Origin: Chitinophaga agri
GTDB lineage: Bacteria > Bacteroidota > Bacteroidia > Chitinophagales > Chitinophagaceae
Length of the DNA stretch: 64,000 nucleotides
Assembly (NCBI RefSeq): GCF_010093065.1
Contig: NZ_CP048113.1
Location: forward strand, 5,660,001-5,724,000
Direction: 5' to 3'
A program made the translations under genes and the position numbers. Of this stretch, positions 13,103 through 30,289 are shown piece by piece. The notes under the pieces are model-generated. The model saw only the letters and a program-made list of their open reading frames with translations, was not told the DNA's origin and ran no database searches. Position 1 is the first letter of the stretch. Each line of letters starts with the position of its first letter.

Positions 13103-15736
13103 ATGTCGCAGAGACAAGCATTACATGAACGGAATCCCTCACCTACATCGGACTATCGCCTTTCACATCCACTGGACCTACGTTCTCTACAGGAACTCAT
13201 CCATGAAAAAGCGCTGCTCTACCCCGATAAGGTCGTACTACGCTTCAGGGATCACGTAATAACATATAATAAATTAAATAATTCTGCCAATCAATTCGCC
13301 CGGCTCCTGGCTGATTACGGCATTCGTAAGGGCGCAATAGTAGGGCTTGCATTAGATCGTTCACCAGAAATGCTCTATTGTCTGCTCGCTATTGTAAAGG
13401 CTGGTGCCACCTATCTTCCGCTTGATCCCGAATATCCACAGGCCAGGATAGAATTCATGTTGCAGGATGCAGACGCCAGCCATCTTATTACTTCCGACAA
13501 ATACTCAGGTAAATTTCAGAGTAAGGCACGTGAAATACTGATGGAAGATTTATTGCGGCAGTCTCCACAGTATAACGTTACGCCTCCCGAGGTGAACATT
13601 AGTATGAATGATGTAGTGTATATACTATACACATCAGGCTCTACCGGTCAGCCGAAAGGGGTACAGATCACACAGCTGGGGCTGGTGAATTTCCTTGTAG
13701 GCATGTTGAAGGCTCCTGGACTAGCCATGCATGACAAGGTGCTGGCATTGACCACCATCTCATTTGATATATCCGGGCTAGAATTATATCTGCCATTGAT
13801 TGCCGGTGCTGAGATCATCCTGACTGATGTGCAGACTTCCAGAGACACGCGACAGCTTATGGAGACTGTCAGACAACAAGGTATAACTGTTATGCAGGCC
13901 ACGCCGGCTACCTGGCGTATGATGCTGGAGTCCGCCTGGGAAGGCCGTTTGCCGTTGAAAGCACTGATCGGAGGGGAGGCGCTTTCCAAGAAACTGGCGG
14001 AGCGGCTCCTGGAGAAATGTGATAGTCTTTGGAATATGTATGGCCCTACAGAGACAACTGTGTGGGCTACACTAAAAAAGATAAATCTGGATGATGAAAT
14101 TATCACCGTCGGCAGACCTATAGACAACATGTTCGCCTATATTCTGGATAGTCAGCTAAGACCTGTCCCTGATGGCACTGTCGGAGAAATATTTATTGGT
14201 GGCGCAGGTGTTGGGAAAGGATATCTGAATAGGCCTGAGCTGAATAAGGAACGTTTTATCCATGATCCTTTTTCTGATAGCCCCGGTGCGTTGATGTATA
14301 AAACCGGTGATCTCGGTAGGATTGTAAATGATGGAGAAATACAGTGTCTTGGCAGAATGGACCACCAGGTCAAGATTAGAGGCTATCGTATTGAACTGGG
14401 AGAAGTAGAATACACTCTTGGCCAGCAAAAGGGGATCAAAGATGTAGTCGTGCTGCCCAAGGATGAACGGCTGGTAGCCTATGTCGTGCAGGAAGATGGC
14501 GCTAGTATAAACTTTGCTGAATGGCAGCAGATATTGAGAAAAACGCTGCCTGAATACATGGTACCAAGCAATTTCGTACTACTGCCCCAATTTCCGCTCT
14601 CACCGAATGGCAAGGTAGATCGAAATGCCCTGGACGCCATGGGAATGGAAATGGAAAAAGCTAGCCGCATATATGTCCCGCCCCGTACTGAACAGGAAAA
14701 GCTGGTCGCAGGCATCTGGGGCGATTACCTGCATGTAGATAAAGTTGGGATAAAGGATGATTTCTTTGAATTAGGAGGTACCTCCATTGTCGCTATGCAG
14801 ATAATGGCCCGCATAGAAAGAGAGATGGGGAAGCGGCTGCCGTTGGCCAGCCTCTTTACTGCTAACACAGTAGAAAAGCTGACTACTGAAATGGAACTGG
14901 ACGATCAGTCGATCTCCTGGGATTTACTCGTACCGGTAAAGCCAACCGGTAATAAGCCGCCCATATTTATTGTCAACGGGCTCGATATGAATGTGCTGCT
15001 GTTCAATAATATTGCACGTAATATGGACCCGGATCAGCCTGTATACGGCTTTCAGCCACGGGGGCTGAACGGACTCGATGAACCATTTGAAACGCTGGAA
15101 GATATGGCAGCTGAGTATATCGCTGCACTACTTGAAAAAGAATTTGCAGATGGCTACGCTCTTGCAGGATATTCCTATGGGGGAGTAGTGGCCTATGAAA
15201 TGGCCAGACAGTTACAGGCGATGGGAAAAAAGGTGAAAATGCTGGCGATGTTCGATACCTACGCCTATAACAAAGGTCACTTTGAAACGGGGTTGCCCAG
15301 GTATATCCGAAAAATAAAACGACAGTTTCCCAAGTTCTTGTTTATCTCTCATTCACTTATTCATAATCCTGGAGAAACGTTACGTTACCAGCAGGCATTC
15401 TTTGTCAGAAAGTACAATGAGTTCGCCGTATATATGGGTATACAGCGGCCTCCTGAAACTGAAAGTGCAGAAGACAGGATCAATGAGAAATATGAGCTGG
15501 CTTACAGCAAGTATCACATGCAGCCATCAGATGCCTGTATCATTGATTTATTCCGCGTAAATATCAGGCTCTATTATCTTGATGACCCTGACTTCCTTGG
15601 GTGGAAACCTTATGCACTTAAAGGAATTGAAGTACATGATGTAAAAGGCAATCATAAAACATTTCTCATGCCGCCTAATGACAAAGATTTTGCTATCTTG
15701 CTACAGCAATTGGTAGACAAGCGTCTGAGCGAATAA
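13103..15736 (+). CDS. NRPS-like protein: adenylation - carrier - thioesterase
   Basis: An 877-residue single-module protein without a condensation domain. The adenylation domain (about residues 30-540) has A3 LYTSGSTGQPKG near 173-186, A5 NMYGPTET, and A10 PLSPNGKVDRNAL near 498. A carrier domain follows (LGGTSIVAMQIM, phosphopantetheine serine about residue 561). The C-terminus is a type I thioesterase (GYSYGGVVAYE, Ser about 691; likely catalytic His in GNHKT near 850). Aligning its core motifs by hand with GrsA gives the ten specificity residues D-I-L-Q-L-G-M-V-W-K, which resemble codes reported for glycine; that reading is inference. It would load an amino acid and release it by hydrolysis or transfer. 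The beta-lactamase gene follows 27 bp later and the lanthipeptide genes lie close by, but a shared pathway is not proven. Confidence 0.88.
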   Translation: MSQRQALHERNPSPTSDYRLSHPLDLRSLQELIHEKALLYPDKVVLRFRDHVITYNKLNNSANQFARLLADYGIRKGAIVGLALDRSPEMLYCLLAIVKAGATYLPLDPEYPQARIEFMLQDADASHLITSDKYSGKFQSKAREILMEDLLRQSPQYNVTPPEVNISMNDVVYILYTSGSTGQPKGVQITQLGLVNFLVGMLKAPGLAMHDKVLALTTISFDISGLELYLPLIAGAEIILTDVQTSRDTRQLMETVRQQGITVMQATPATWRMMLESAWEGRLPLKALIGGEALSKKLAERLLEKCDSLWNMYGPTETTVWATLKKINLDDEIITVGRPIDNMFAYILDSQLRPVPDGTVGEIFIGGAGVGKGYLNRPELNKERFIHDPFSDSPGALMYKTGDLGRIVNDGEIQCLGRMDHQVKIRGYRIELGEVEYTLGQQKGIKDVVVLPKDERLVAYVVQEDGASINFAEWQQILRKTLPEYMVPSNFVLLPQFPLSPNGKVDRNALDAMGMEMEKASRIYVPPRTEQEKLVAGIWGDYLHVDKVGIKDDFFELGGTSIVAMQIMARIEREMGKRLPLASLFTANTVEKLTTEMELDDQSISWDLLVPVKPTGNKPPIFIVNGLDMNVLLFNNIARNMDPDQPVYGFQPRGLNGLDEPFETLEDMAAEYIAALLEKEFADGYALAGYSYGGVVAYEMARQLQAMGKKVKMLAMFDTYAYNKGHFETGLPRYIRKIKRQFPKFLFISHSLIHNPGETLRYQQAFFVRKYNEFAVYMGIQRPPETESAEDRINEKYELAYSKYHMQPSDACIIDLFRVNIRLYYLDDPDFLGWKPYALKGIEVHDVKGNHKTFLMPPNDKDFAILLQQLVDKRLSE

Positions 15737-15763: not shown

Positions 15764-16648
15764 ATGAGAAATCTAATCTTGCCATGTTCCCTGGCATTAT
15801 CGTCCTTACTGTTAGGCATTCAAAGTTCCGCACAACAAAAGAATACCAGAAAATACATTCATGAAACCACTGCCGCCGCTCAGGGACATGTTGGTATGGC
15901 AATGTTAACATTGCAGGGCAAAGACACGATGTCGTTTAACGGCAATGACAGGTTTCCGATGCAAAGTGTATTCAAAGTACCACTGGCACTTGCTGTACTC
16001 GATCAGGTAGACAAGGGAAAGCTCAAACTTGACCAGATTATCCACATCAGAAAGGAAGAGTTATTACCAACCTGGAGTCCTATCAAAAAAAAGTATCCGG
16101 ATGGAACAGATATGCCACTCAGTGAGTTACTTGCTTACACTGTTTCGCAGAGTGATAACAACGGCTGCGACATTTTGTTTCGCCTGGTAGGAGGTACCGA
16201 CTATGTAGATCGATATGTCCATAGTATTGGTATCGACAGTATATCCATCAAAGCAACAGAAGAAGGAATGGCACAGGCCTGGAATGTACAGTATACTAAC
16301 TGGGCTACACCCGTCGCAATATTGCATATGCTGGTCGGTATAGAAAAAGGGAGTTACTTGTCTAAAAGTAGCAATGACTTCCTGCTCAAAATTATGCGTG
16401 AAACTACAACAGGTCCAGGCAGAATGAGAGGCCTGTTACCTAAAGATGCGATAGTCGCTCATAAAACGGGCACTTCCGATACATGGAGCGGGATCACTGC
16501 CGCTACCAATGATGCCGGTATCGTCACATTACCAAATGGAAAAAAATATGCCATTGTCGTGTTTGTCAGCGATGCGAAAGCCGATGAAGCTACCAGAGAT
16601 GGTGTCATCGCTAAACTCACCCGGCTGTTCTGGGACAGACTCAAATAG
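15764..16648 (+). CDS. Class A beta-lactamase (CfxA/PER-like subclass)
   Basis: A 294-residue secreted serine hydrolase with a signal peptide (cleavage probably after SSA, about residue 23). All class A motifs are present: S68-V-F-K71 (nucleophile and general base), S130-D-N132, a Glu pair at 166-167 in the omega loop, and K234-T-G. The omega-loop form, with VQYTNWATP after it, is that of the Bacteroidota subclass (CfxA, CepA, PER type) rather than TEM. It is expected to hydrolyse penicillins and cephalosporins in the periplasm. It follows the NRPS-like gene by 27 bp, so cotranscription is likely. Its last 8 bp overlap the 3' end of lanB on the opposite strand. Confidence 0.93.
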   Translation: MRNLILPCSLALSSLLLGIQSSAQQKNTRKYIHETTAAAQGHVGMAMLTLQGKDTMSFNGNDRFPMQSVFKVPLALAVLDQVDKGKLKLDQIIHIRKEELLPTWSPIKKKYPDGTDMPLSELLAYTVSQSDNNGCDILFRLVGGTDYVDRYVHSIGIDSISIKATEEGMAQAWNVQYTNWATPVAILHMLVGIEKGSYLSKSSNDFLLKIMRETTTGPGRMRGLLPKDAIVAHKTGTSDTWSGITAATNDAGIVTLPNGKKYAIVVFVSDAKADEATRDGVIAKLTRLFWDRLK

Positions 16649-19600
16649 CCTGTTGCTGCTTTTGCATAGCTAATCTGGATTCATAATACTTACTCAGAAA
16701 ATGATAGACAACCATTTCATGTTTCCGCTGGTTGGAAGAGAACATCCTGTTCAGAAACATGTGAATATAACTGGATAATAGCTCGTCCCATGTATTAACA
16801 GTCACAGTACGAATGGCCTGTTGAATGTGGGACGATCTTTTTTCCAGTAGCAATGCTACCTCTTCAATTTCATTAGTTGTATCCTGTTGAGGATCAAGGA
16901 AACTACTGATCTGACGCATGTGTTTACGATAACTGGCATTTAATTGTGTCTGCAATGTCTGGCTTCCTCCAAATTCACGGAAGAAATGTTGTTGTAATCT
17001 TTTCAGATATGCCGCTCGTTTCGGAAGCATATAGCCAAAGTCCTGCAACAACATATCCACACCCCGTATCGCCAGCAGCCAGCGGAAATGTTCTCCTTCT
17101 TCTCCCTGCAGGAGGTCTATACAGCCAATGGCCGCTTCGCTGTCATAAAAGAAGATGTTTTCACTTAGCACCATTGTCTGTTCCCCATATCGCTCTATTT
17201 CTCTTATATAGGTATCTGTCTGTATCTTGTGAATAAGAATGGGGTCTATATTGGCAGATATCTTTTCATGTAGTTCTTCCAGTACAGTTTTCCAGAACAC
17301 AGGATCAGTAGCATGATGGAAGCGTATCCGCAGATGATCTTCCGGATCAGTATAACGAATGAAGAACCATTTATCAATGATGCTCCTTTCTACCAGGCTT
17401 TTCACTAACGGAAAGACGACTTCTTTCAATACCTTCTCCGCTGTAGTAACCCCCGTATAGATCTTCACGTATAACCATTCACTGCCCGTCTGGAAACGTC
17501 GTGGTAGTGTTGTCTGAGAGGATGGAAGTACAGGCGGTTGTTGTTGCTGTATACTTTTAAATGGAATAATGATCTCATTGGTAAATCTGCCCGCAGTGCC
17601 GTTCACCCAACACTGATCGGGTGTCTGTAATACCTCCTGTAATGTCAGTTGCTCTTTCTTTAACAGTGTGGTCACTAATAATTGTATACAGGCTGTATTA
17701 TCAAGGTCAATGAACAACTCATTGTCCCGCTCTGCAATAGTAACATACCTTGGGAGGCGTAATGCTGCTCTGATAACGGAAAAGGCGGCCACCTGCTTTG
17801 CCGGGGTATCATTCTTTTTTAGCGAAGGATGTTCTTTACTGTGAATAACCCAGCTGCATTTCTGCAGAATGATTTTCCCATATCGTACTCTGGGTAGAAA
17901 GGAGGTTGTTACTGGTAGCTGCCATTGCCAGCCAGTAGCATGCCTTAACTGCTGGAACTGCAGATCACAGAGGAATTTGTATATCGGTAGACTTCCAACA
18001 GTAAAATTATGTGCGGTACTCAGCCGGGGTATGACTCTTTTGTTGAAATGTTTTGAACGTAGTATAACGCGGTCCTGCTGTACACTAACCATCAGGTCTG
18101 TTACCGGCAGCTGTCTGTCGGCTGGCACGCTGCCATTTCCGAGATATACGATCTCATACGCTCTCAGCTGCGGCCTTAACAGGATATTGCCCGTACGAGA
18201 TTCCGGCAGATGTATGATCTCCGCATAGATCACATCCGGCTGACTATCCGCTTCTTCTCTGAGACATTCCTGTACCAGTGTTTTCAGTTCAGGATCACCA
18301 TGACAGAATCTTCCCAGCAAATTAGCCGCTGAAGGTCCTCCACAGGAACTGAAATCGAACAAATATACCCCATTATCCAGCGTTTGCGCATTTTGACTAA
18401 CCAGGCTCCCCATCAGATAAAAGCTGTCCGGAATAGGGCTGTTTTCGCCAGATACGAGGTGGTTGATATCTTCGTCGGTCAATGTCACTTCCACCTGCTG
18501 TTGCTGCATGCAAGCCATATATCTCTGTAGCTGAAACTGCCGCATATTATTCCAGGTAATAGTTTCGGAGGAATGGCTATTCCCAGCGGATATCTCTTCC
18601 AGTAATGGAGCATATGCCGCATAATGACTATTATAGGCACCATAACCGATGCCTGTTTCCGTATCCAGTGCAAGGGCCAGTGGCACTTCCTGCTCTTCGT
18701 AGCGCTGAATGAAATGCTTACAGAACTGCTGTAGATCAGGATGCTTATTGACAGTGGATAACTTCCACAACATTGTCATCTGTTCCTGTATTTCACTGAT
18801 TACAGACTGACTGATCGTATTAGTTGCTGTAGATAGAAATAGATCCGTCTGGATCAGGTCTTTATTTTTGGTTTCGGGTAATAGCTGTCTGACCAGTGTA
18901 TGTATCTTCAGATACTGTGAGACACCTGGAACTGCGATCGTCAATAATTGTTGTATACTACTAAGTATATGAGTCACTGACTGAATACCATGCAGTTCTG
19001 CTGTTCGCGCCGTCAGTACATGAAAGAACTCTTCGCCGGTGATAGTCGGTTCCAGTTCACTGACCAGTATCTGACTTGCTATCAGTTCCTGTATAAACCC
19101 GTTCGCCTCATCTTCACTGATCTCTTCGTCGGTAATATGTTGGGAAAGTGTCTGTAGCGTGGCGCCTTCGGCGGATTTATTAAGCACTGCTTCCAGATAG
19201 GAAGAATAATTGACTGCGGTAAGGTCGTACTGCCGGAACTTGTTTTTCACGGTGAACGCTGCATACCTGTAGGTGTCTCCTGCTCTGTAAATGGAATTAT
19301 TTGGAAAGTAGCGTAATTGTGCCTGTACAACAGGAATAGCTGCAATGCTTTCTGCCAGTTCTGCTACATAGTTCATGTCCAGTCTGCAGTGTTTTCTATG
19401 CGCATCAGCTGACTGAATATACACATCCGTTGAAGAGGCAATATGTCCAGTACTACATCCGGCAAACAATCCATAAGGCGTACAACGTGTGCTCATACGC
19501 AGCACATATCGAAAAAGAGACATCACCAGTTTCTGTATATCCTTTTCGTTGCTGAGTTGTCCGGTTTGCCATTTCCCGAGTTCGCTGCTCAACTCTGGTG

Positions 19601-19754
19601 AGGCGATATATATAGCTTCTGCAAGATAGGGCGTCGAAAAAACTGTTTTTATTTCATCAGCCATTGCTACATAAGGCAGCTGTAAAAAGCGGGTTAAAAA
19701 ATCTACCGGCATCAGTGGAGACCTGAGCAGGTAAAAGCCTTTATCAATGATCAT
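16641..19754 (-). CDS. lanB: Lantibiotic dehydratase LanB, full length
   Basis: A 1037-residue class I lanthipeptide dehydratase in one chain. It uses glutamyl-tRNA to glutamylate Ser/Thr of the precursor peptide and then eliminates glutamate to give dehydroalanine or dehydrobutyrine. The glutamylation domain (about residues 1-740) starts with the usual LLRSPLMP and has RMSTRCTPYGLF at about 86-97, matching the Arg/Arg/Thr residues needed in NisB. The elimination domain (about 748-1037) shows the SpaB-C type pattern WLYVKIYTG, FFIRYTDPEDHLRIRFH and WLLAIRGVDMLL. It is transcribed divergently from the two precursor genes and lanC, leaving a 236-bp shared promoter region, and converges on the beta-lactamase gene. 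The length agrees with NisB/SpaB, so this LanB is not split. Confidence 0.94.
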   Translation of the reverse strand: MIIDKGFYLLRSPLMPVDFLTRFLQLPYVAMADEIKTVFSTPYLAEAIYIASPELSSELGKWQTGQLSNEKDIQKLVMSLFRYVLRMSTRCTPYGLFAGCSTGHIASSTDVYIQSADAHRKHCRLDMNYVAELAESIAAIPVVQAQLRYFPNNSIYRAGDTYRYAAFTVKNKFRQYDLTAVNYSSYLEAVLNKSAEGATLQTLSQHITDEEISEDEANGFIQELIASQILVSELEPTITGEEFFHVLTARTAELHGIQSVTHILSSIQQLLTIAVPGVSQYLKIHTLVRQLLPETKNKDLIQTDLFLSTATNTISQSVISEIQEQMTMLWKLSTVNKHPDLQQFCKHFIQRYEEQEVPLALALDTETGIGYGAYNSHYAAYAPLLEEISAGNSHSSETITWNNMRQFQLQRYMACMQQQQVEVTLTDEDINHLVSGENSPIPDSFYLMGSLVSQNAQTLDNGVYLFDFSSCGGPSAANLLGRFCHGDPELKTLVQECLREEADSQPDVIYAEIIHLPESRTGNILLRPQLRAYEIVYLGNGSVPADRQLPVTDLMVSVQQDRVILRSKHFNKRVIPRLSTAHNFTVGSLPIYKFLCDLQFQQLRHATGWQWQLPVTTSFLPRVRYGKIILQKCSWVIHSKEHPSLKKNDTPAKQVAAFSVIRAALRLPRYVTIAERDNELFIDLDNTACIQLLVTTLLKKEQLTLQEVLQTPDQCWVNGTAGRFTNEIIIPFKSIQQQQPPVLPSSQTTLPRRFQTGSEWLYVKIYTGVTTAEKVLKEVVFPLVKSLVERSIIDKWFFIRYTDPEDHLRIRFHHATDPVFWKTVLEELHEKISANIDPILIHKIQTDTYIREIERYGEQTMVLSENIFFYDSEAAIGCIDLLQGEEGEHFRWLLAIRGVDMLLQDFGYMLPKRAAYLKRLQQHFFREFGGSQTLQTQLNASYRKHMRQISSFLDPQQDTTNEIEEVALLLEKRSSHIQQAIRTVTVNTWDELLSSYIHMFLNRMFSSNQRKHEMVVYHFLSKYYESRLAMQKQQQAI

Positions 19755-19871
19755 AATGTTCTGAATACAACCAATAAGTTAACTTTTATCTGTATTGCGA
19801 AGGCCCCCCTTAAAAGGTGATATTTTGTTAACTCGGAAACAAGTGCAGAAAATCCCCTTTTCCAGTGATGG

Positions 19872-19899
19872 TTGTAAGGCTGGTTTATCCTTATCTTTA
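19872..19899 (+). promoter_or_regulatory. Probable promoter of the precursor-lanC unit
   Basis: TTG (19872-19874), a 17-nt spacer and TATCTTTA (19892-19899) give a near match, one base off, to the TTTG / TAnnTTTG pattern. Transcription would start about 90 nt before the first precursor gene. The spacer is slightly short, so confidence is limited. Confidence 0.4.
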
Positions 19900-19990
19900 A
19901 GAAGAATGAAACCCGAACCCTCATTGCCCGCTATAACGAACTGCTAGAGAAACTGTATTCATTTCTTAATATTTAAATCACTTGTTAACT

Positions 19991-20149
19991 ATGAAGAAAG
20001 CGTCAAGCAAAAAGCTGAACCTTGGTAAGATCAAAATTGCCAAATTAAGTGCTACAAAGCTGGAAGTTGCTAACCAGCAGGCTAATGCACCAACCTACAC
20101 TGGTTGCAGCCTCTTTAAATGCCCTCCACCTCCGGAAGCAGGAAACTAA
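19991..20149 (+). CDS. Class I lanthipeptide precursor 1
   Basis: A 52-residue peptide. The leader is Lys-rich with KKLNLGKIKIAKL at residues 7-19, a form of the KKLxLxKxxIxxL leader seen in Bacteroidota class I lanthipeptides and probably the LanB binding site. The likely core is the C-terminal 18-20 residues, TYTGCSLFKC followed by PPPPEAGN. T35 or T37 with C39, and S40 with C44, could form two small thioether rings, leaving a stiff tetraproline tail. There is no Gly-Gly cleavage site, so the leader boundary is unknown. It lies 31 bp before precursor 2 and divergent from lanB. The ATG at 19991 is the only start that includes the whole leader. Confidence 0.85.
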   Translation: MKKASSKKLNLGKIKIAKLSATKLEVANQQANAPTYTGCSLFKCPPPPEAGN

Positions 20150-20180
20150 GTACAGCAGTTTATTGAAAATCTAAAACCGC

Positions 20181-20375
20181 ATGCTAATGAAAAAGAAAGT
20201 TGAAAAAAAACTTGACCTTGGTAAGATCAAACTGGCCAGTCTGACCCGTGAAAAACAGGATATGAACAATGGCGCAGCCTTGATACCTACTACCACAATA
20301 CTTTCCTTTAAAGTATGTACAGACGATATCAGTCAGGGCGCACCTATCTGCAGCGTCGACTCCTGTCGTTTCTAA
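20181..20375 (+). CDS. Class I lanthipeptide precursor 2
   Basis: A 64-residue peptide (62 if M3 at 20187 is the start). The leader repeats that of precursor 1: KKLDLGKIKLASL at residues 9-21 differs from the other at four of 13 positions, all but one conservative. The core differs. After NNGA (29-32) comes a Ser/Thr-rich segment with three Cys: T37-T39, S42, C46, T47, S51, C57, S58, S61, C62. S42-C46 (SFKVC) has the same spacing as SLFKC in precursor 1. Up to three thioether rings are possible, and TTT could give several dehydrobutyrines. It is followed by a 12-bp hairpin and then lanC. Confidence 0.85.
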   Translation: MLMKKKVEKKLDLGKIKLASLTREKQDMNNGAALIPTTTILSFKVCTDDISQGAPICSVDSCRF

Positions 20376-20382
20376 CTGTATA

Positions 20383-20421
20383 ATCATGGTGCAGCATACA
20401 CTACAATGTCTGCACCATGAT
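20383..20421 (+). promoter_or_regulatory. Hairpin between precursor 2 and lanC
   Basis: A perfect 12-bp stem (ATCATGGTGCAG / CTGCACCATGAT, 20383-20394 and 20410-20421) with a 15-nt loop begins 7 nt after the precursor stop. Only a short T-stretch follows (GCTTTGTG), so it fits a leaky terminator or an mRNA-stabilising element that keeps precursor transcript above lanC transcript. That role is inferred. Confidence 0.6.
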
Positions 20422-20439
20422 GCTTTGTGATGACTATAT

Positions 20440-21654
20440 ATGGATTATAAAAAAAGTGCCGGGAAAACGTTACAGCGTATCAGCATTGCGCTGGACAGCT
20501 TTACAGAAAATAGTGCCAGCCCCGGTTTATTGGGAGGCTATACAGGTGCCGCTTTATTCTATGCCTACTATTATCAACTGACAAAAAAAAGAAAACATCT
20601 CAGCAAAGTACATCACCTGCTGGAACAGGCTGTACATGATCTGGCCGGAACTGCCCTTCCTTATAACTATTGTAATGGCATTGCCGGCATCGTATGGGGG
20701 ATACAGCATCTGGTTAAAGCCGGCTTTGCCGGAGACGAAGGGCTGGAAGACATTTTTGAAGATGTCGATGCAATACTCGGAGAAGAAATGATCAGCACAT
20801 TACAACAGGGAGGCCATGATTTCCTGCATCAGGGACTTGGGATTGCCCTGTATTTCCTGGAACGGACTCAATATCCGCTTGCTGTTAAATGGTTAGAGGC
20901 AGCTGTTGATGCGCTTCAGGATACAGCTATTGAAACACTGGAAGGTATCACCTGGCAAGACCATCTTACCGGCCTGACGGACAGGCCCGCAAATGAAACT
21001 TCTTTTAACCTCGGCCTTGCGCACGGAGTGCCTGCCATTCTCTCCATTCTGGGCATGATACATAATAAGGGTATTGCAGTAGTGCAAACGGCAGCGTTAC
21101 TCAGAAAAGGGCTGAACTGGTTGCTGGACTGTAAAAATCCACCAGACAAAACAGCTATATCCCTGTATCCGGCGCTGGTAGACATCCAACATACAGCACT
21201 TACCGGACATCAAAGTCGTCTTGGCTGGTGTTACGGCGACCTGGGCATCGCCACACTGATGCTGAATGCTGCTAACTGGTTGAGCGATAATACTTATAAA
21301 ACGTACGCACTAGACATCTTCCATCATACATTACAACACCGGAATGCACAGAACGGAAGTGTACATGACGCCTGTCTTTGTCATGGCAGTGCAGGTATTG
21401 CCCATATATACCGGCGTGCCTGGTTGCAAACAAATGATCCTGCTTTACTCAATGGTGCAACACACTGGTTACAACATACCCTGCAAATAAATACACATCA
21501 GGACGCCCCAGCTGGTTTCTGCTTTTATGGAAAAGGAGCCTATGAAAACAGTTATGGCATGCTGGAAGGCATAGCTGGCATCGGACTTTCACTTATTGCG
21601 GCAATTGATCCTGATACAGATCCTGCATGGGACCGGTGTATATTGTTATGCTGA
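20440..21654 (+). CDS. lanC: Lanthipeptide cyclase LanC
   Basis: A 404-residue zinc-dependent cyclase that adds cysteine thiols to dehydrated Ser/Thr, forming lanthionine rings. The LanC alpha/alpha-toroid repeats are seen in the recurring Gly-rich motifs (GLLGGYTGAALF, YCNGIAGIVWG, FLHQGLGIALYF, GLAHGVPAILSIL, GWCYGDLGIA, CHGSAGIAHIY). The zinc ligands are C264 (WCYGD) and C314-H315 (LCHGSAG); H195 (LAHG) corresponds to the catalytic histidine of NisC. The length is normal. It lies 64 bp after precursor 2 and is probably in the same transcript. The partner dehydratase LanB is encoded divergently. Confidence 0.95.
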   Translation: MDYKKSAGKTLQRISIALDSFTENSASPGLLGGYTGAALFYAYYYQLTKKRKHLSKVHHLLEQAVHDLAGTALPYNYCNGIAGIVWGIQHLVKAGFAGDEGLEDIFEDVDAILGEEMISTLQQGGHDFLHQGLGIALYFLERTQYPLAVKWLEAAVDALQDTAIETLEGITWQDHLTGLTDRPANETSFNLGLAHGVPAILSILGMIHNKGIAVVQTAALLRKGLNWLLDCKNPPDKTAISLYPALVDIQHTALTGHQSRLGWCYGDLGIATLMLNAANWLSDNTYKTYALDIFHHTLQHRNAQNGSVHDACLCHGSAGIAHIYRRAWLQTNDPALLNGATHWLQHTLQINTHQDAPAGFCFYGKGAYENSYGMLEGIAGIGLSLIAAIDPDTDPAWDRCILLC

Positions 21655-21747
21655 TATTTTCGTTATATTACGTATAAAGCCGGTTGCCTATTGTAAGTCA
21701 AATGTTACCCATTACTGTCCGCATTGGCATATTTTAAATGGATACAC

Positions 21748-22374
21748 ATGATCCGCCTGTATTTCGTGAATAACCATCCTATTATCCTGGAAGGCCTGCA
21801 CTCATTTTTTAATGACGAACATGATATCATCATAGCCGGAGAGGCCAGAAGTGGCGTAGGATGTCTTAAATTCCTGATGCATAACAGCGTCGACGTTATT
21901 ATTATTGATACCTGTCTGCCCGATATAGACAGCGTGCAATTGTGTGCCAATATTAGAATGGAATATCCGGCAGTCAGTGTACTCGTACTCAGTTTTATGA
22001 AGGAGGAACGATATATCAACAGTCTGCTGCAAAGCGGTATAGGCGGTTATGTACTCAATACGGCAGACAAAGGTGAACTGCTATTTGCGATCCATTCTGT
22101 ATATGCCGGAGAGATATATCTCTCACCTGCTATCAGGCAGGCGATGAATAGTGAAAGGGTAGGGGTACAAAAAAAATTCCCTCCTCTTACGAGAAGGGAA
22201 AAAGAAGTATTAAGTCTGATATCAGAAGGAAATACAAATGCAGAAATTGCAGAAAAGCTGTTTATCAGTGCTGATACTGTGAATAGTCACCGGAAGAAAT
22301 TACTTGCCAAACTGGAAGTCAGGAATACCGCGATGCTTATTAAGTATGCTGTTGATAACAACCTGCTGGTCTGA
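21748..22374 (+). CDS. LuxR/NarL-type response regulator with degenerate receiver
   Basis: A 208-residue two-domain regulator, with the receiver at about 1-120 and a LuxR helix-turn-helix at about 145-205 (LTRREKEVLSLISEG, NAEIAEKLFISADTVNSHRKKL). A TTG eight codons upstream is in frame, but the ATG at 21748 gives the standard receiver start. D54 (IIIDTCLPD) is in the phospho-acceptor position and S82 in the Thr/Ser switch position. The metal-binding acidic pair is replaced by N8-N9 (VNNHPIILEGL rather than VDDHP), and the conserved lysine by N104 (GYVLNTAD). Phosphorylation is therefore doubtful. No histidine kinase gene is nearby. Its position 93 bp after lanC suggests it regulates the lanthipeptide genes. 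Confidence 0.9.
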   Translation: MIRLYFVNNHPIILEGLHSFFNDEHDIIIAGEARSGVGCLKFLMHNSVDVIIIDTCLPDIDSVQLCANIRMEYPAVSVLVLSFMKEERYINSLLQSGIGGYVLNTADKGELLFAIHSVYAGEIYLSPAIRQAMNSERVGVQKKFPPLTRREKEVLSLISEGNTNAEIAEKLFISADTVNSHRKKLLAKLEVRNTAMLIKYAVDNNLLV

Positions 22375-23499
22375 TCAATTACTCTTGAAGTAGATCTTTT
22401 CCACTACAACCCCCAGCTTTTTCATCGCTGATGCGTCGCTCTTTACTCTCTTATCACCAGTCACCTGATCATATAATTTAGGATCGCTGGAGTTATTGGC
22501 CTTGAACACCACATTCACTCCTTTTCCTGCAAACGCACCACCTTCCCAGTCAGCGACTGCACCACCATTATCCCACTCAAATCCATTGATCCTGAAATCA
22601 CGGCCATTCACCTTTACTACTTTTTCCAGAGGATCGCCCACTTTGATACCGAATGGCGGTTTCCACTTGGAGTTTTCTTTTGTGAAAGAGACAGCAGTAC
22701 CTTTTTCTCCGTTAAAGAGTACTTCCATTTCATTGTCCGTATCAGGGAATACATAGTATCCGGTACCGATTTCATTGCCCTGGTAGTCCTGCGCCGTGCG
22801 TGCTACTACATTCTCTTTTCCGTAAAGCTCATACAGTTGTTCCGGCTGGCGTAACTTGAAAACAGGTCTTACGTCCCAGTTGAATGTCTCCGCTGCCGCA
22901 TTTGCCGGAGCTGTAGGTGTGCTACCTGGTTCAGCAGGAGCTGTTACACCATTAGCGGCAGTCGTACTGGTTGATGCCGTGGCGGTATTATTATCCGTGG
23001 TGGTAGCAGTGGCATCCGCAGATGAATTGTTATCTGCCACGGCTGGTGAAGGCAGCTGCATGGGCGGCAGGGTAGCCGGAATAGCACCCGTGGTATAAAG
23101 GGTTGACTTCTCTTCGAGCAGCGCTTTCGTTTCGCCTTTATACTTATTGGCTACATATGTAGCCAGTGGGAATACACTGTTGGTCTGCAGGTTCATAGCC
23201 CTGAGATGCGCAATGAACTGCTGTCTGTTACCATTACTGAACTGGTAGATAAATTTCAGAGAGGCATCTAATGCTGCAGGATCTTTTGCCAGTTCCGTCA
23301 TTGTCTTATCAATATCCAGACCGGCAGCGCCGCTCCTTGACATCTGTTCAGTTACGAAGACAACAAGGGAGTCATTCCTTACTTCGTAACGCTTCGCGAA
23401 TTTTCCGGAATAATCTTCTGCGATCTTGTCCTCCAGTTTCGTTTGCGCTTGTATGGTAAGGGGGAGAGCAAATGCTAATATGGCAATGATGCGTTTCAT
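22375..23499 (-). CDS. Secreted protein of unknown function
   Basis: A 374-residue exported protein with a clear signal peptide (MKRIIAILAFALPLTIQAQ, cleavage after QAQ). Residues about 30-140 form an N-terminal domain. A low-complexity Ala/Thr/Asn/Pro-rich linker covers about 145-205. The C-terminal domain (about 210-374) contains QPEQLYELYGKENVVAR, GTGYYVFPDTDNEMEVLF and GIKVGDPLEKVVKVNGRDF. The C-terminal part resembles nothing with known activity that I can name. Its stop codon directly abuts that of the response regulator on the other strand, without a base between. It is probably periplasmic; I make no functional claim. Confidence 0.75.
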   Translation of the reverse strand: MKRIIAILAFALPLTIQAQTKLEDKIAEDYSGKFAKRYEVRNDSLVVFVTEQMSRSGAAGLDIDKTMTELAKDPAALDASLKFIYQFSNGNRQQFIAHLRAMNLQTNSVFPLATYVANKYKGETKALLEEKSTLYTTGAIPATLPPMQLPSPAVADNNSSADATATTTDNNTATASTSTTAANGVTAPAEPGSTPTAPANAAAETFNWDVRPVFKLRQPEQLYELYGKENVVARTAQDYQGNEIGTGYYVFPDTDNEMEVLFNGEKGTAVSFTKENSKWKPPFGIKVGDPLEKVVKVNGRDFRINGFEWDNGGAVADWEGGAFAGKGVNVVFKANNSSDPKLYDQVTGDKRVKSDASAMKKLGVVVEKIYFKSN

Positions 23500-25253: not shown

Positions 25254-25910
25254 CTAGTAAAGCTGATTGCGCAGGATGCGTTTGATCATGTGAATGGTGG
25301 TCCGGCTGATCTGGCCTTTGTATTTTTCAAGGACGGCATTTTCACTCAGTCCCTCCCCAAGGTCAATTACTATCAGGAGCCATTTGCTGAGAAATTCAGA
25401 ATTAGGGGTCCGGTACTTCAGGAGACGGCGTACCGTTTCGATCACCGCTTTGCTGACCTGCCCCTCATTCAGTTCAAAGATCTCGTCCGTACTTAGACCA
25501 AGTGCTATGTCCTGGGCTACACGAGAATAATCCTGCAGGTACTTTTCGTTCGCTTCCATTACCTGCAACAGCGGATTATCACTATACCGGATCACAGCAT
25601 ACTTTCTGGCCTGTTTATGTAACTCAGTAAGCGCATAATTGCGGGCGATGTTATCACAAATGACAAGATCATCCTTAGAGAGTTCAAACCATTCCCCTTT
25701 TACTCTTTTATGCTGAAACACAATATGCAGGCATTCCTCCAGCTCGCTCATATTCGCGGCCGCATATTGCCTGATCACTCTGAACATGACTGGTAGATGC
25801 GTGTGGTAGGAGCCAAGCCTCTTCTGAAGATCCTGCGTTTTGCCGATCTTAAAAAGGTTCTTTCCAGTATTGATAATGTAAACGCACTTTCCGATTTGTA
25901 CTTGCTGCAT
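25254..25910 (-). CDS. GIY-YIG / T5orf172-type protein with duplicated helix-turn-helix-like tail
   Basis: A 218-residue protein. Residues about 8-84 form a GIY-YIG-like domain of the T5orf172/MUG113 type: VYIINTG, LFKIGKT with K21-I-G23, R31, E59 in the helix, and GEWF at 72-75. Such domains are predicted single-strand or structure-dependent nucleases. The tail holds two similar 29-residue units (about 138-166 and 187-215) with the pattern LSxxxxxExxxGQxSxxxIxxxxRxL, each looking like a helix-turn-helix. It may therefore bind DNA. It is divergent from the McrBC-like operon, with repeat-rich DNA between them. Nuclease activity is inferred from the family only. Confidence 0.75.
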   Translation of the reverse strand: MQQVQIGKCVYIINTGKNLFKIGKTQDLQKRLGSYHTHLPVMFRVIRQYAAANMSELEECLHIVFQHKRVKGEWFELSKDDLVICDNIARNYALTELHKQARKYAVIRYSDNPLLQVMEANEKYLQDYSRVAQDIALGLSTDEIFELNEGQVSKAVIETVRRLLKYRTPNSEFLSKWLLIVIDLGEGLSENAVLEKYKGQISRTTIHMIKRILRNQLY

Positions 25911-26280: not shown

Positions 26281-26326
26281 TGTTGATTTTTAGATGTTTA
26301 CTTAAATATTGAATAAATTGCATGCT

Positions 26327-27994
26327 ATGAAGCGCGCACGTATATATGACGTCAGGGAGGGGGATATCGATTATCATAAACAGCTGTCTCCTGATAAAGC
26401 GTTCCTTTTCAGAAGCGAGGAGTCGTTACCGGATAGCATGGAAGGGGATATCGTTTTTATTGTTGATCAAACGGAGAAGCAGGCATTTTACACTATTGCC
26501 ACAGATATTCTCTGTAAAAGCACCCATAAGGCAGATAAACAGGGGGTAACATTTAAATACAATAACAAGACCTATAGCAGTACGTCCGGAACGAGATTCA
26601 GAAAATATGATATTCTGCAAACTGTTGAGATCTCTGCTGGCTGGGTATGGTGTCATTCACTACCCGATAACCCGGTTGTTGACCTATGGAATGAACAGGG
26701 AGATAATCCAGACAGATTGAAGAATGTTAATGAACTGCAGAAGTTATTTACAACCGGGCCCGCTTTTGAACAGCTTGACAGGTATAACATACAAGTGGAT
26801 ATAGTGGATATTCCGGTGAATCAGTCAAATATAAAAATGACGATGGTGACATCCTCGACGCATATGAAGAAAAAGGAAACCATTTCTTATGAGCATCCTT
26901 ACCGAAAGCTTTTAATGGCTATCAGAACGAAGCCGTTTGTCTTGCTGAGTGGGGTAAGTGGTACTGGCAAATCCTGGCTTGCCCGTAAAATTGCATACAT
27001 GACCTGTGCTGATGAAGCGCTCAGAAAAGGTGAGCAACCCGGAAATTTTGAAATAGTAAGAGTACGGCCAGACTGGCATGATCCGGATGAATTACTTGGG
27101 TATCAGACTATTATTCAGGGAGGGAGGGTGCGTTATCACTGTACGGATGTGTTGAGGTTTATCGTGAAAGCATGGCAGTATCCACATGTACCATTTATTC
27201 TCTGTCTTGATGAGATGAACCTTGCCCAGATAGAGCATTATTTTTCTGATTTTTTAAGTGTATTAGAAACAGTCAGATCGGACAACGGGAGAATCATTTA
27301 TGATGCATTTATTAGCCACTCCAGGGTAAAACAGTACAGCAGAGAAGATGAAACTTTCTGGATGCAGCTGGGATTGGAAGGTAATGATCCGCTTATGCAG
27401 CACTTCCTTATGCATGGAATTTCTATACCGGTTAACCTCGTTGTGATAGGCACCGTAAATATTGACGCGACTACACGAACACTCAGTGCAAGGCTGCTGG
27501 ACAGAACGATGATAATAGAAATGAAGAGAAGGGACCTATGGCATGATCTGACCGCAGCGCAGGAAAAATGGGAATATCCTGAGACATATGAAATTGCTGC
27601 CTGGCTCAGGCAACCACCACTGGACCGACATGTAGCCTATAGTCGTTACCCCGATATAGGAATGACGATCATGCAGCGACTGGAGAAGCTGCTTCATGTA
27701 TTAGATAACTCACCATTTGAGCTGTCCGAGCGTTTTGTTCACAGCACATTGGTCTATTGTTTCCTGCATAACGAGTTAGCTATAAAAGAACAACAGAAGG
27801 ATGACTGGCTCAATAGCTGCCTGGACGAGATAATCTGTATGAAAATACTGGTCCGTATCTCGGGAGATAGCAATTCCTGCAGACCCGTGCTTGAGAAGCT
27901 GATGGGTGAAACAGCGTATTATCCTGTTAGCAGGCGAAAAGTGACGCATATGCTGGCGCTTCTTGAAAATAATGGTTATACCTCTTACTGGTAA
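26327..27994 (+). CDS. McrB-like AAA+ GTPase of a type IV restriction system
   Basis: A 555-residue protein. The frame opens at a TTG six codons earlier, but the ATG at 26327 is preferred. The N-terminal part (about 1-200) contains segments such as EGDIVFIVDQ and may be the modified-DNA reader; that is inference. The motor part is McrB-like: Walker A GVSGTGKSW near residue 208, Walker B with the family hallmark CLDEMNLAQIEHYFSDFL, and VVIGTVNIDATTR with LSARLLDRTMIIE as the sensor region. McrB-type motors use GTP to translocate DNA and drive the McrC nuclease against modified (often phage) DNA. The partner gene follows 3 bp later. Confidence 0.87.
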   Translation: MKRARIYDVREGDIDYHKQLSPDKAFLFRSEESLPDSMEGDIVFIVDQTEKQAFYTIATDILCKSTHKADKQGVTFKYNNKTYSSTSGTRFRKYDILQTVEISAGWVWCHSLPDNPVVDLWNEQGDNPDRLKNVNELQKLFTTGPAFEQLDRYNIQVDIVDIPVNQSNIKMTMVTSSTHMKKKETISYEHPYRKLLMAIRTKPFVLLSGVSGTGKSWLARKIAYMTCADEALRKGEQPGNFEIVRVRPDWHDPDELLGYQTIIQGGRVRYHCTDVLRFIVKAWQYPHVPFILCLDEMNLAQIEHYFSDFLSVLETVRSDNGRIIYDAFISHSRVKQYSREDETFWMQLGLEGNDPLMQHFLMHGISIPVNLVVIGTVNIDATTRTLSARLLDRTMIIEMKRRDLWHDLTAAQEKWEYPETYEIAAWLRQPPLDRHVAYSRYPDIGMTIMQRLEKLLHVLDNSPFELSERFVHSTLVYCFLHNELAIKEQQKDDWLNSCLDEIICMKILVRISGDSNSCRPVLEKLMGETAYYPVSRRKVTHMLALLENNGYTSYW

Positions 27995-27997
27995 CGC

Positions 27998-30289
27998 ATG
28001 CAGACACTCCTGATTAAACATCCGCATTTTACGCTTGAAATAGAGGTCGCAGATGATAAGGACAGAAGAGGCTTTGAGCGGACCTTTCTGATCGCCTTTC
28101 AGAGACATTGGAAAAAGCATTTCGTCACGAAGTATGAATTCTCATCTAATAGTACAGAATGCCGGATATGGCAATATAACAACCGGGCTCGGTTTGAACA
28201 GGTGAATATCAGTAAAGTGACCCATCCCGTTTTCTTCGAAAATACCAGTTATAAATTCAACCTGGATTTTAAAAAAGATGTACTACATCCATTTGTCTAT
28301 AGTAAACTTTATAATATTGAAAGTCTGTTTAAAATGCGGGAAATTACCGAAAGGACTTATACCGCTTCCGCTATCATAAACTTTCAGAACCAGATCGGAT
28401 ATTTTGATCTGAATATCAATTATCAATATAAGACCGTACCTCATAGTGTCTTGTTCCGGTTTGAAGTGTTTCCCGTAAAAATGAATTTCAAACGCGATTT
28501 CCCGGCTATCATTAAAGATATAGAAGTAGTGTTCCCCAGGTTGGTAATAGATCAGCTGAAAAAGACCTATCACAATTTTGATCTTCAGGGTACTGCCGAC
28601 AGTGAAATAGTATGGTGGATTATTTTTACGAACCTTTTCAGAAGTATTATACGGCATGTGGAAATGATAGTAAAGGATCCATATAAACATTTGGGTACGG
28701 AAATAAAACATGTGACTGCCGGCAAGGTTAAAAAGCCCAAGGGCAGACTGGCTGATAAACTGGAAAGATTTCAGGGACAACCTGATAAACACTTCAGCGT
28801 AGCGCGCACAAAGCTCATAGAAGACAACTACGAAAACAGGTTCGTAAAATTCATCATTAAGGATTTACTCTCCAGCTTTAAAACTATATACGGTAAGGTA
28901 AAAAAGGATAGCAGCTTTAAAAGGATGTCAGAAGAATACCGCATACAACTGGAATATGCCGCTGATGCATTGTCCGCCTTGTTGCGCAATCCTTTATTCA
29001 ACAAGGTAAAAGATTTCAAAGAACCAAAGCAACAGTCTGCGGTATTGCTATCCCGTCCTGGTTATGCCGGACTGATAAAAGACTGGGAATCCTTTCATAG
29101 CGGATATCATTTACTGGAAGGTATATACGAAATGGAATTTAAGGACATTGCGTATCTGTATCAGGTCTGGTCTTTTTTTGCTATCGCAGATCTTTTACGT
29201 CGCATTACAGGTGTATCGCCTGATATCATCAAAATGCCAACCATACGAAAACAGGAGTTCCGGGAGGTATTGCAAAAAGATATGGCGTCAAAAATGGTCT
29301 ATCACTGTCCGGATCAAACGGTAATAGAATTATATCAGGAACTGCGGTATACACCCGATTTCACCGATACAGATGCCGGTACACTACATGAATACGTTTG
29401 CCCTGATATCATACTGCGTATTGGAAAAAAAGATCAGCCGCGCAATCTCTATCTCACCTATCTTTTTGACGCTAAATACCGACTGAGGGAATCTGCACGT
29501 TACCGGAATATGGATGAGCCATTACCTGACGACCTGGAACAAATGAACAACTATAAGGAGGTAATCTATCACAGGAGAGAACAGGATGGAGGATATGAAT
29601 ATACAAAGGAAGTAACGGGCGCATATGTGTTATATCCCGGTCGGGCCCAGGAAGCGACCTATCGCCAGTATTACGAGCAGATAATACTGCAAACTAACAG
29701 GGGCGGATTCCCATTATTACCCTACAATAAGATGGGAATGTCATTCCTGGAAGAACACCTGCGCATGCTCATCAGTATAGATAGCAAAATACACCTGTAT
29801 AATATCATTAAGCCCAAAGGTATCGATGTGAAAAGCACGAATGCCTATGTTATTGTATTACCAGTTCCCGTATCAGAACTGGCACTGATCGCAGCAGTGA
29901 CCGATCAGATAATGGCAGAGTTTCCATGGAGGACCTGGCAATCAATAATAGGCACTGGCGTCATTCGCTATATGGCCCCTTATATACAAGGGAGAGGGAT
30001 CATCTGCTATTACGAAATTATGGGAATTGACGTGAAGCCGTGGCGCGATATTTATCCCCGTTCACATCCTGCCTATCGTAATGAAGGCCGGCGCTACATG
30101 GTCTTACAACTCGCTAATAAACAAATGCTTGATGGATATGTGCAGATAAAAGGAATGGCTAACAATAAACGTTATACGCAGATAAGGCAATTGTATCGTC
30201 CTGTAAATGGTATGATAAGGACGTTGTCTGAGAATAGTATACGGGAAGCTGCCAGGGATGCTATCTGGACCAGCAGGCAAAAAGGATAG
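27998..30289 (+). CDS. McrC-like nuclease subunit with DUF2357-type domain
   Basis: A 763-residue protein starting 3 bp after the McrB-like stop. The N-terminal two-thirds matches the DUF2357 type that accompanies McrB-like motors. A PD-(D/E)xK nuclease core is visible towards the C-terminus: CPDIILRIG near residue 469, then LFDAKYRL near 491 with the Asp and Lys of the DAK motif. A C-terminal domain of about 150 residues of unknown role follows (INIKM-like beta strands, IIGTGVIRYM). It is expected to be the endonuclease of a two-gene type IV restriction system. It is larger than E. coli McrC (348 residues). The aldo/keto reductase gene that follows is unrelated in function. Confidence 0.82.
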   Translation: MQTLLIKHPHFTLEIEVADDKDRRGFERTFLIAFQRHWKKHFVTKYEFSSNSTECRIWQYNNRARFEQVNISKVTHPVFFENTSYKFNLDFKKDVLHPFVYSKLYNIESLFKMREITERTYTASAIINFQNQIGYFDLNINYQYKTVPHSVLFRFEVFPVKMNFKRDFPAIIKDIEVVFPRLVIDQLKKTYHNFDLQGTADSEIVWWIIFTNLFRSIIRHVEMIVKDPYKHLGTEIKHVTAGKVKKPKGRLADKLERFQGQPDKHFSVARTKLIEDNYENRFVKFIIKDLLSSFKTIYGKVKKDSSFKRMSEEYRIQLEYAADALSALLRNPLFNKVKDFKEPKQQSAVLLSRPGYAGLIKDWESFHSGYHLLEGIYEMEFKDIAYLYQVWSFFAIADLLRRITGVSPDIIKMPTIRKQEFREVLQKDMASKMVYHCPDQTVIELYQELRYTPDFTDTDAGTLHEYVCPDIILRIGKKDQPRNLYLTYLFDAKYRLRESARYRNMDEPLPDDLEQMNNYKEVIYHRREQDGGYEYTKEVTGAYVLYPGRAQEATYRQYYEQIILQTNRGGFPLLPYNKMGMSFLEEHLRMLISIDSKIHLYNIIKPKGIDVKSTNAYVIVLPVPVSELALIAAVTDQIMAEFPWRTWQSIIGTGVIRYMAPYIQGRGIICYYEIMGIDVKPWRDIYPRSHPAYRNEGRRYMVLQLANKQMLDGYVQIKGMANNKRYTQIRQLYRPVNGMIRTLSENSIREAARDAIWTSRQKG

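Follow-up and report, generated by a model that had tools for sequence, protein, structure and literature searches.

A predicted compact gene cassette for class I lanthipeptides in Chitinophaga, with one constant precursor and variable partners

Organization of the cassette

The window, i.e., the whole stretch of 64,000 nucleotides of Chitinophaga agri DNA analyzed here, belongs to a single contig of 7.97 Mb and contains two short neighboring open reading frames, designated precursors A and B, which are flanked by genes for a lanthipeptide dehydratase (LanB), a lanthionine cyclase (LanC) and a response regulator (Table 1). LanB is transcribed divergently from the precursors. For precursor B, a start at an alternative in-frame ATG (20181) would lengthen the peptide by two residues.

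Table 1. Features of the cassette and its surroundings (positions in the window).
Feature	Position	Strand	Size	Sequence, domains or matches
NRPS-like stand-alone protein	13103..15736	+		adenylation, carrier, thioesterase
Class A beta-lactamase	15764..16648	+		NF012099, 344 bits
LanB, full-length dehydratase	16641..19754	-	1037 aa	PF04738 E 3.7e-163, PF14028 E 5.5e-68, TIGR03891
Precursor A	19991..20149	+	52 aa	MKKASSKKLNLGKIKIAKLSATKLEVANQQANAPTYTGCSLFKCPPPPEAGN
Precursor B	20187..20375	+	62 aa	MKKKVEKKLDLGKIKLASLTREKQDMNNGAALIPTTTILSFKVCTDDISQGAPICSVDSCRF
LanC cyclase	20440..21654	+		PF05147 E 1.3e-41; GLAHG, WCYG, CHG motifs
LuxR/NarL-type response regulator	21724..22374	+		PF00072, PF00196
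Gene next to the regulator	22375..23499		374 aa	
T5orf172/MUG113-type gene	25254..25910			PADLOC PDC-S57 (E 2e-8)
AAA_5 ATPase	26309..27994			PADLOC candidate PDC-M26A (E 4e-37)
DUF2357/PD-(D/E)XK protein	27998..30289			no PADLOC match

The LanB was found to be a single chain that holds both the glutamylation and the elimination domain (PF04738, PF14028), and a profile built from 9 LanBs matched NisB (4wd9) over positions 14-1032 of 1038 (E 5.5e-66). For LanC, structure-profile matches were obtained to 8byk (E 3.3e-14) and to NisC (2g02, E 8.8e-4), and the three short motifs of Table 1 are among the LanC motifs listed in the available text of PMC3091789. The original prediction of class I precursors adjoining LanB and LanC is supported by these domain and structure-profile matches; the locus has the gene content expected of a class I cluster, namely Ser/Thr and Cys in the LanA core with separate LanB and LanC genes alongside.

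The regulator was compared over 36 sequences, i.e., those of the window and of the 35 orthologous loci described below, at the acidic pair, the phospho-acceptor Asp and the Lys of receiver domains. The acceptor Asp is kept in all 36, and the acidic pair reads DD in 20, DN in 6 and NN in 10, the window being one of the last; 22 sequences retain the Lys, and 12, again including the window, have Asn instead. Judging by these residues, the regulator of the window may no longer be responsive to phosphorylation. The ORF families that the cassette conserves over the 35 loci include no kinase.

Other neighboring genes were considered in turn. The beta-lactamase is chromosomal and belongs to subclass A2, its 344 bits exceeding the cut-off of 320; it is found near LanB in 12 of the 35 orthologous loci as well as in C. 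pinensis DSM 2588. The NRPS-like gene lies near the cassette in 10 of the 35, and these ten all belong to the window's closest relatives. With so few occurrences, neither gene was retained as part of the pathway, and the beta-lactamase is probably not needed for the peptides. The 374-aa gene has a secreted-protein-like start and was near the cluster in 17 of the 35 loci; as an immunity candidate it was ruled out, being present in 79/79 genomes of the genus regardless of the cluster. A mobile origin of the cassette was likewise unsupported, since positions 19754-21700 had no match in the plasmid collection and positions 19991-20372 had none in the phage collection. Promoter-like sites (2, against 1.5 in shuffles) and terminator-like sites (2, against 0.7) say little, and a loose candidate match to a Bacteroidetes -33/-7-like consensus lies at 19795. 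Further downstream, the AAA_5 ATPase and the DUF2357/PD-(D/E)XK protein (26309-30289) resemble an McrBC-like pair, and the T5orf172/MUG113-type gene precedes them.

Leaders, cores and selection

Two adjacent precursors with one leader and unlike cores had been predicted, and the open reading frames of A and B bore this out, with the common leader KKL(N/D)LGKIK(I/L)A(K/S)L exactly as it had been written. Precursor A consists of a leader (residues ~1-26), a linker and a core of approximately (N)APTYTGCSLFKCPPPPEAGN, which contains two Cys and PPPP; precursor B has the same leader and a core of approximately PTTTILSFKVCTDDISQGAPICSVDSCRF, which contains three Cys and TTT. In the available text of PMC7268733, LxLxKx5L is the leader motif of Bacteroidetes class I precursors, and it is present here in both leaders, as LNLGKIKIAKL in A and LDLGKIKLASL in B. 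Against NF038153 (lant_leader_L1a), A scored 20.6 bits and B 15.2 bits, both below the curated cut-off of 22 bits, and at E values of up to 1 the profile was matched by 29/29 members of the A family and 36/39 of the B family. By sequence, the two leaders resemble the NF038153 family, with the pair of the window falling below its cut-off.

For A, protein searches retrieved 28 relatives (best E 2.6e-22), and for B they retrieved 38 besides the window's own (best E 1.9e-27); with so many relatives, the pair is not a chance occurrence. Wherever a source organism was stated among these matches it was Chitinophaga, and two of the relatives were already labelled ‘class I lanthipeptide’ in public records. 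A sample of 394 genomes from the family contained 4 with a match to A, each of the same genus as the window.

Selection was estimated for each peptide on the window and 10 close relatives. The pN/pS values for B were 0.08 in the leader, 0.43 in the linker and 0.04 in the core, and those for A were 0.15, 0.22 and 0.15, respectively, so that in A the constraint on the core does not exceed that on the leader, and the contrast of core to linker is mild. These ratios indicate purifying selection both in the leaders and in the cores, with the linkers held more loosely.

Orthologous loci

A scan of named genomes with alignment of LanB yielded 79 loci, drawn from the best 80 of 471 matches. All 35 loci with a LanB at least 46% identical to that of the window (46-73%) were taken as orthologous, and none above the cut was dropped; the cut itself was chosen after the peptides of the loci had been inspected. 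The next locus below it, of a Spirosoma (L089, 45%), lies on a contig that begins just before LanB, and no leader-type ORF was seen there. By taxon, 33 of the 35 are Chitinophaga, one is a Flavihumibacter MAG (L066) and one is [Flexibacter] sp. (L090). In the LanB tree, which took in 33 of the 35 orthologues (L065 and L069 were removed by the start-site filter), the orthologues and the window clustered together, to the exclusion of four long-branched outgroups (100/99).

LanB, the precursors, LanC and the regulator were arranged alike in all 35 loci, and LanB, LanC and the regulator were the only ORF families of at least 90 aa in 35/35. No further family of this size occurred in more than 17 of the 35, the minor families being partly annotated, and a transporter, a leader protease or an immunity gene was not seen among the conserved ORF families of the 35 loci.

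Outside the orthologous set, a sister group of Chitinophaga LanBs with 39-41% identity was observed among the matches listed (L111, L112, L117, L119, L126, L131, L136, L139). Its loci carry arrays of 4-8 different precursors, mostly with GG leaders, in which CCVETDEVTCP-like and ISSCRATSP-like cores recur.

A constant precursor and variable partners

Exactly one A-type peptide was found in each of the 35 loci, as in the window. It is the first precursor in 33 of them, another precursor standing ahead of it in L072 and L130. In 34 of the 35 loci it is accompanied by 1-5 further precursors, and in C. vietnamensis (L074) by none. Together with the peptides of the window, this gave 36 A peptides and 59 partners, 95 precursors in total.

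The A peptides follow a pattern of a PT...C ring and then S/T-x3/4-C. The spacing of the first ring is T-x3-C in 34/36 and T-x4-C in 2/36, and the alternative donor T37 is lost in two A peptides with T-x3-C (L087, L099). That of the second is S-x3-C in 20/36, S-x4-C in 15/36 and T-x4-C in one. A third Cys occurs in 17 of the 36, and the A peptide of L109 has CPAP as its tail. From these patterns, the predicted rings of A are T35-C39 (MeLan) and S40-C44 (Lan). Among the partners, the C-terminus takes the form S-x5-C-S-x3-C plus one or two residues in 50 of the 59 and is built otherwise in 9. Five of those 50 have Ile instead of Ser immediately ahead of the last Cys, and S56 is therefore the likely ring donor in B; the predicted rings of B are S40-C44, S49-C55 and S56-C60.

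It had also been proposed that both cores keep an S-x3-C unit. The two stretches, SLFKC and SFKVC, are indeed there; as a conserved unit of the pair, the proposal did not hold, because the spacing of the second ring varies among the A peptides, and SFKVC falls within that half of the core which varies among the relatives of B. The two lipid II-binding motifs given in the available text of PMC7268733, [S/T]x3CTP(G/S)C and TxTxEC, were the only such patterns searched, and they occurred in 0/95 precursors.

Co-occurrence of A and B in the genus

Profiles of A and B were next searched in 79 genomes from the genus. A full-profile B was defined as a match reaching position 57-59 of the 59 profile positions, with matches listed to E ~2e-6; the per-genome results carried no such limit. 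A was found in 51/79 genomes, and, among the matches listed, full-profile B was present in 49 of these 51 and in 0 of the 28 genomes without A, i.e., both in 49, A only in 2, B only in 0 and neither in 28. Fisher's test gave a P of 2e-19, which ignores shared ancestry and linkage and is descriptive only: with genomes of common descent and genes linked in one operon, the co-occurrence is not an independent test.

The two genomes with A and, among the matches listed, no full-profile B were G418 and G462 (C. vietnamensis), with partial or weak B-profile matches of best E 1.7e-7 and 1.6e-7, respectively; G436 was the one genome without A to give a weak B match (E 0.0058). In C. vietnamensis (L074/L148), A is the only precursor and adjoins LanB, LanC and the regulator. 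In G418, LanC and the regulator accompany a diverged A, and no LanB match was found in the 13 kb examined.

Orphan A-like precursors were also observed, at 8227-8382 of L050 (G330) and at G354:C7 276171-276293, with the leader KKLTLNKIKIAKL; the core of the one in G330 contains PTCAVCDP. No match to the LanB or LanC of the window was found in the surrounding 17 kb of the orphan precursor, and such peptides may be processed in trans. Further matches of similar size were seen in G354, G405 and G410.

Leader removal and export

No GG cleavage site is present in A or B of the window. GG precedes the core in 3/36 A peptides (L069, L072, L130) and in 13/59 partners. The C. agri genome encodes four C39-peptidase proteins, one of them inside a second lanthipeptide cluster, and these proteins could serve A and B in trans. 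This second cluster (G000:C1 7584220-7591673; L052 4221-11674) consists of a C39-ABC transporter, a split LanB (854 + 274 aa) and a 613-aa LanC-domain protein; an NF038153 leader search of the genome found no precursor there. With its split LanB and a LanC of its own, its make-up as read from the sequence is of the pinensin type.

Interpretation and alternatives

The locus is best described as a putative compact Chitinophaga class I cassette, in which lanB is transcribed away from lanA(A)-lanA(B)-lanC-response regulator. In the proposed scheme, LanB would bind the KKLxLGKIK leader shared by A and B and dehydrate Ser/Thr residues of the cores, and LanC would join Cys to the dehydro residues. 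A would then carry two adjacent rings (T35-C39, S40-C44) followed by its proline tail, and B three rings (S40-C44, S49-C55, S56-C60). Cleavage of the leader and export would be provided by genes outside the conserved cassette, and the regulator would probably control the operon. On sequence grounds, two distinct products are very probably made by the one LanB/LanC set. A two-component system or two separate products had been named in the original prediction; these were the right alternatives, and sequence cannot decide between them.

We lean, at a probability of about 45%, towards A and B being partners, of which A is constant and B changeable. In its distribution B depends on A and not the reverse, and A is constant and single-copy, which slightly favors partnership; the locus of C. 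vietnamensis, which has A only and keeps LanB, LanC and the regulator, makes it less likely. An antibiotic role for the two peptides would be plausible. A more elaborate version is doubtful, namely a modular weapon or signal in which the constant A would serve, e.g., in docking, and fast-changing partners would set the target, the genus holding A at one copy and duplicating or replacing these partners.

The strongest rival, with a considerable chance of being correct, is that one LanB/LanC set with a promiscuous leader produces two independent lanthipeptides from a growing library, with no obligate partnership. The number of partners ranges from 0 to 5 per locus, 9/59 partners are without the common C-terminal pattern, C. 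vietnamensis has A only, and the arrays of the sister LanB group reach 8 different precursors (L111, L112, L131, L136), all of which fit such a library. However, under free assortment some B-only loci would be expected, and none was seen among the matches listed, full-profile B being found in 0/28 genomes without A; moreover, A stays single in 35/35 loci while its partners multiply.

It is improbable, though worth stating, that A and B act not as antibiotics but as signals or surface-active morphogens, the conserved response regulator then belonging to their circuit. A regulator is indeed present in 35/35 loci, no immunity gene is common to all 35, and the two lipid II patterns are absent from the 95 precursors. 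However, immunity may reside elsewhere or be superfluous in a Gram-negative producer, and LuxR-type regulators are in any case frequent in biosynthetic clusters. That the locus is decaying or silent and makes no product is very improbable, since, despite the loss of the acidic pair and Lys from the receiver of the window regulator and the lack of a LanB match in the 13 kb examined in G418, the pN/pS of the cores is low (0.04 in B, 0.15 in A) and the LanB and LanC frames have stayed open over a deep clade.

A biological role is likely, as A is widespread (51/79 genomes) and the cores are constrained. Few lanthipeptides of Bacteroidota are known as products, and what is new here is the genus-wide pattern of a constant A with variable partners. 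If A and B do act together, as we prefer, they would constitute a class I pair with one constant and one variable member.

Comparison with known systems

The closest counterpart is type 1 lantibiotic cluster I of C. pinensis DSM 2588, Cpin_1435-1440, in the available text of Marsh et al. 2010 (PMC3091789), which comprises a beta-lactamase (Cpin_1435), LanB (1436), two LanAs (1437 and 1438), LanC (1439) and a LuxR-family regulator (1440). The two LanAs are given there as 50% identical, owing to similar N-termini. Taken by locus tag, this order, bla-lanB-two lanA-lanC-LuxR regulator, is the same as that of the window. The LanB of the window is 73% identical to that of another strain, C. pinensis YS-16 (L085), and it is from YS-16 that a likeness of the cores to cluster I is inferred. 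The available text of Marsh et al. 2010 mentions no isolated product for cluster I, and a literature search with four of the Cpin locus tags returned nothing beyond that paper. The cassette is thus not new, having been described in silico in 2010, and the window is a further member. As to the original remark that neither core was recognized as a known product, no characterized product was found in the accessible literature; the novelty is reduced by the report of the pair in 2010. The core and leader strings had no match in the literature text searched, although an earlier listing in the supplementary tables of PMC7268733 is possible. Chitinocin of C. flava was considered as the product of the cassette and set aside.

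The pinensins (Mohr et al. 2015) are of class I and from the same genus as the peptides of the window (available text of PMC7268733, PMC13060382 and PMC9248904). They differ in having a split LanB (PMC7268733), whereas that of the window is one chain, and in their two methyllanthionine rings as described in the available text of PMC13060382. As of 2020, the available text of PMC7268733 gave the pinensins as the only lanthipeptides isolated from Bacteroidota; deepflavo and deepginsen are tied to Flavobacterium and Chitinophaga strains in the accessible part of a review table. Pedobacter lusitanus, also of Bacteroidota, has class I lanthipeptides as well (Bothwell et al. 2021, as described in the available text of a review).

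Among two-component lantibiotics, alpha peptides of the investigated pairs are said in the available text of PMC7268733 to bind lipid II and to carry a motif for it, whereas the pair of the window has neither of the patterns searched. What the window shares with such systems is that two structurally different lanthipeptides are encoded together. Roseocin and birimositide likewise comprise two peptides from one gene cluster (available text of PMC7268733 and PMC10027976), and roseocin, like A and B, joins a conserved leader to diverse cores (PMC7268733); both are of class II, whereas the cassette of the window is of class I.
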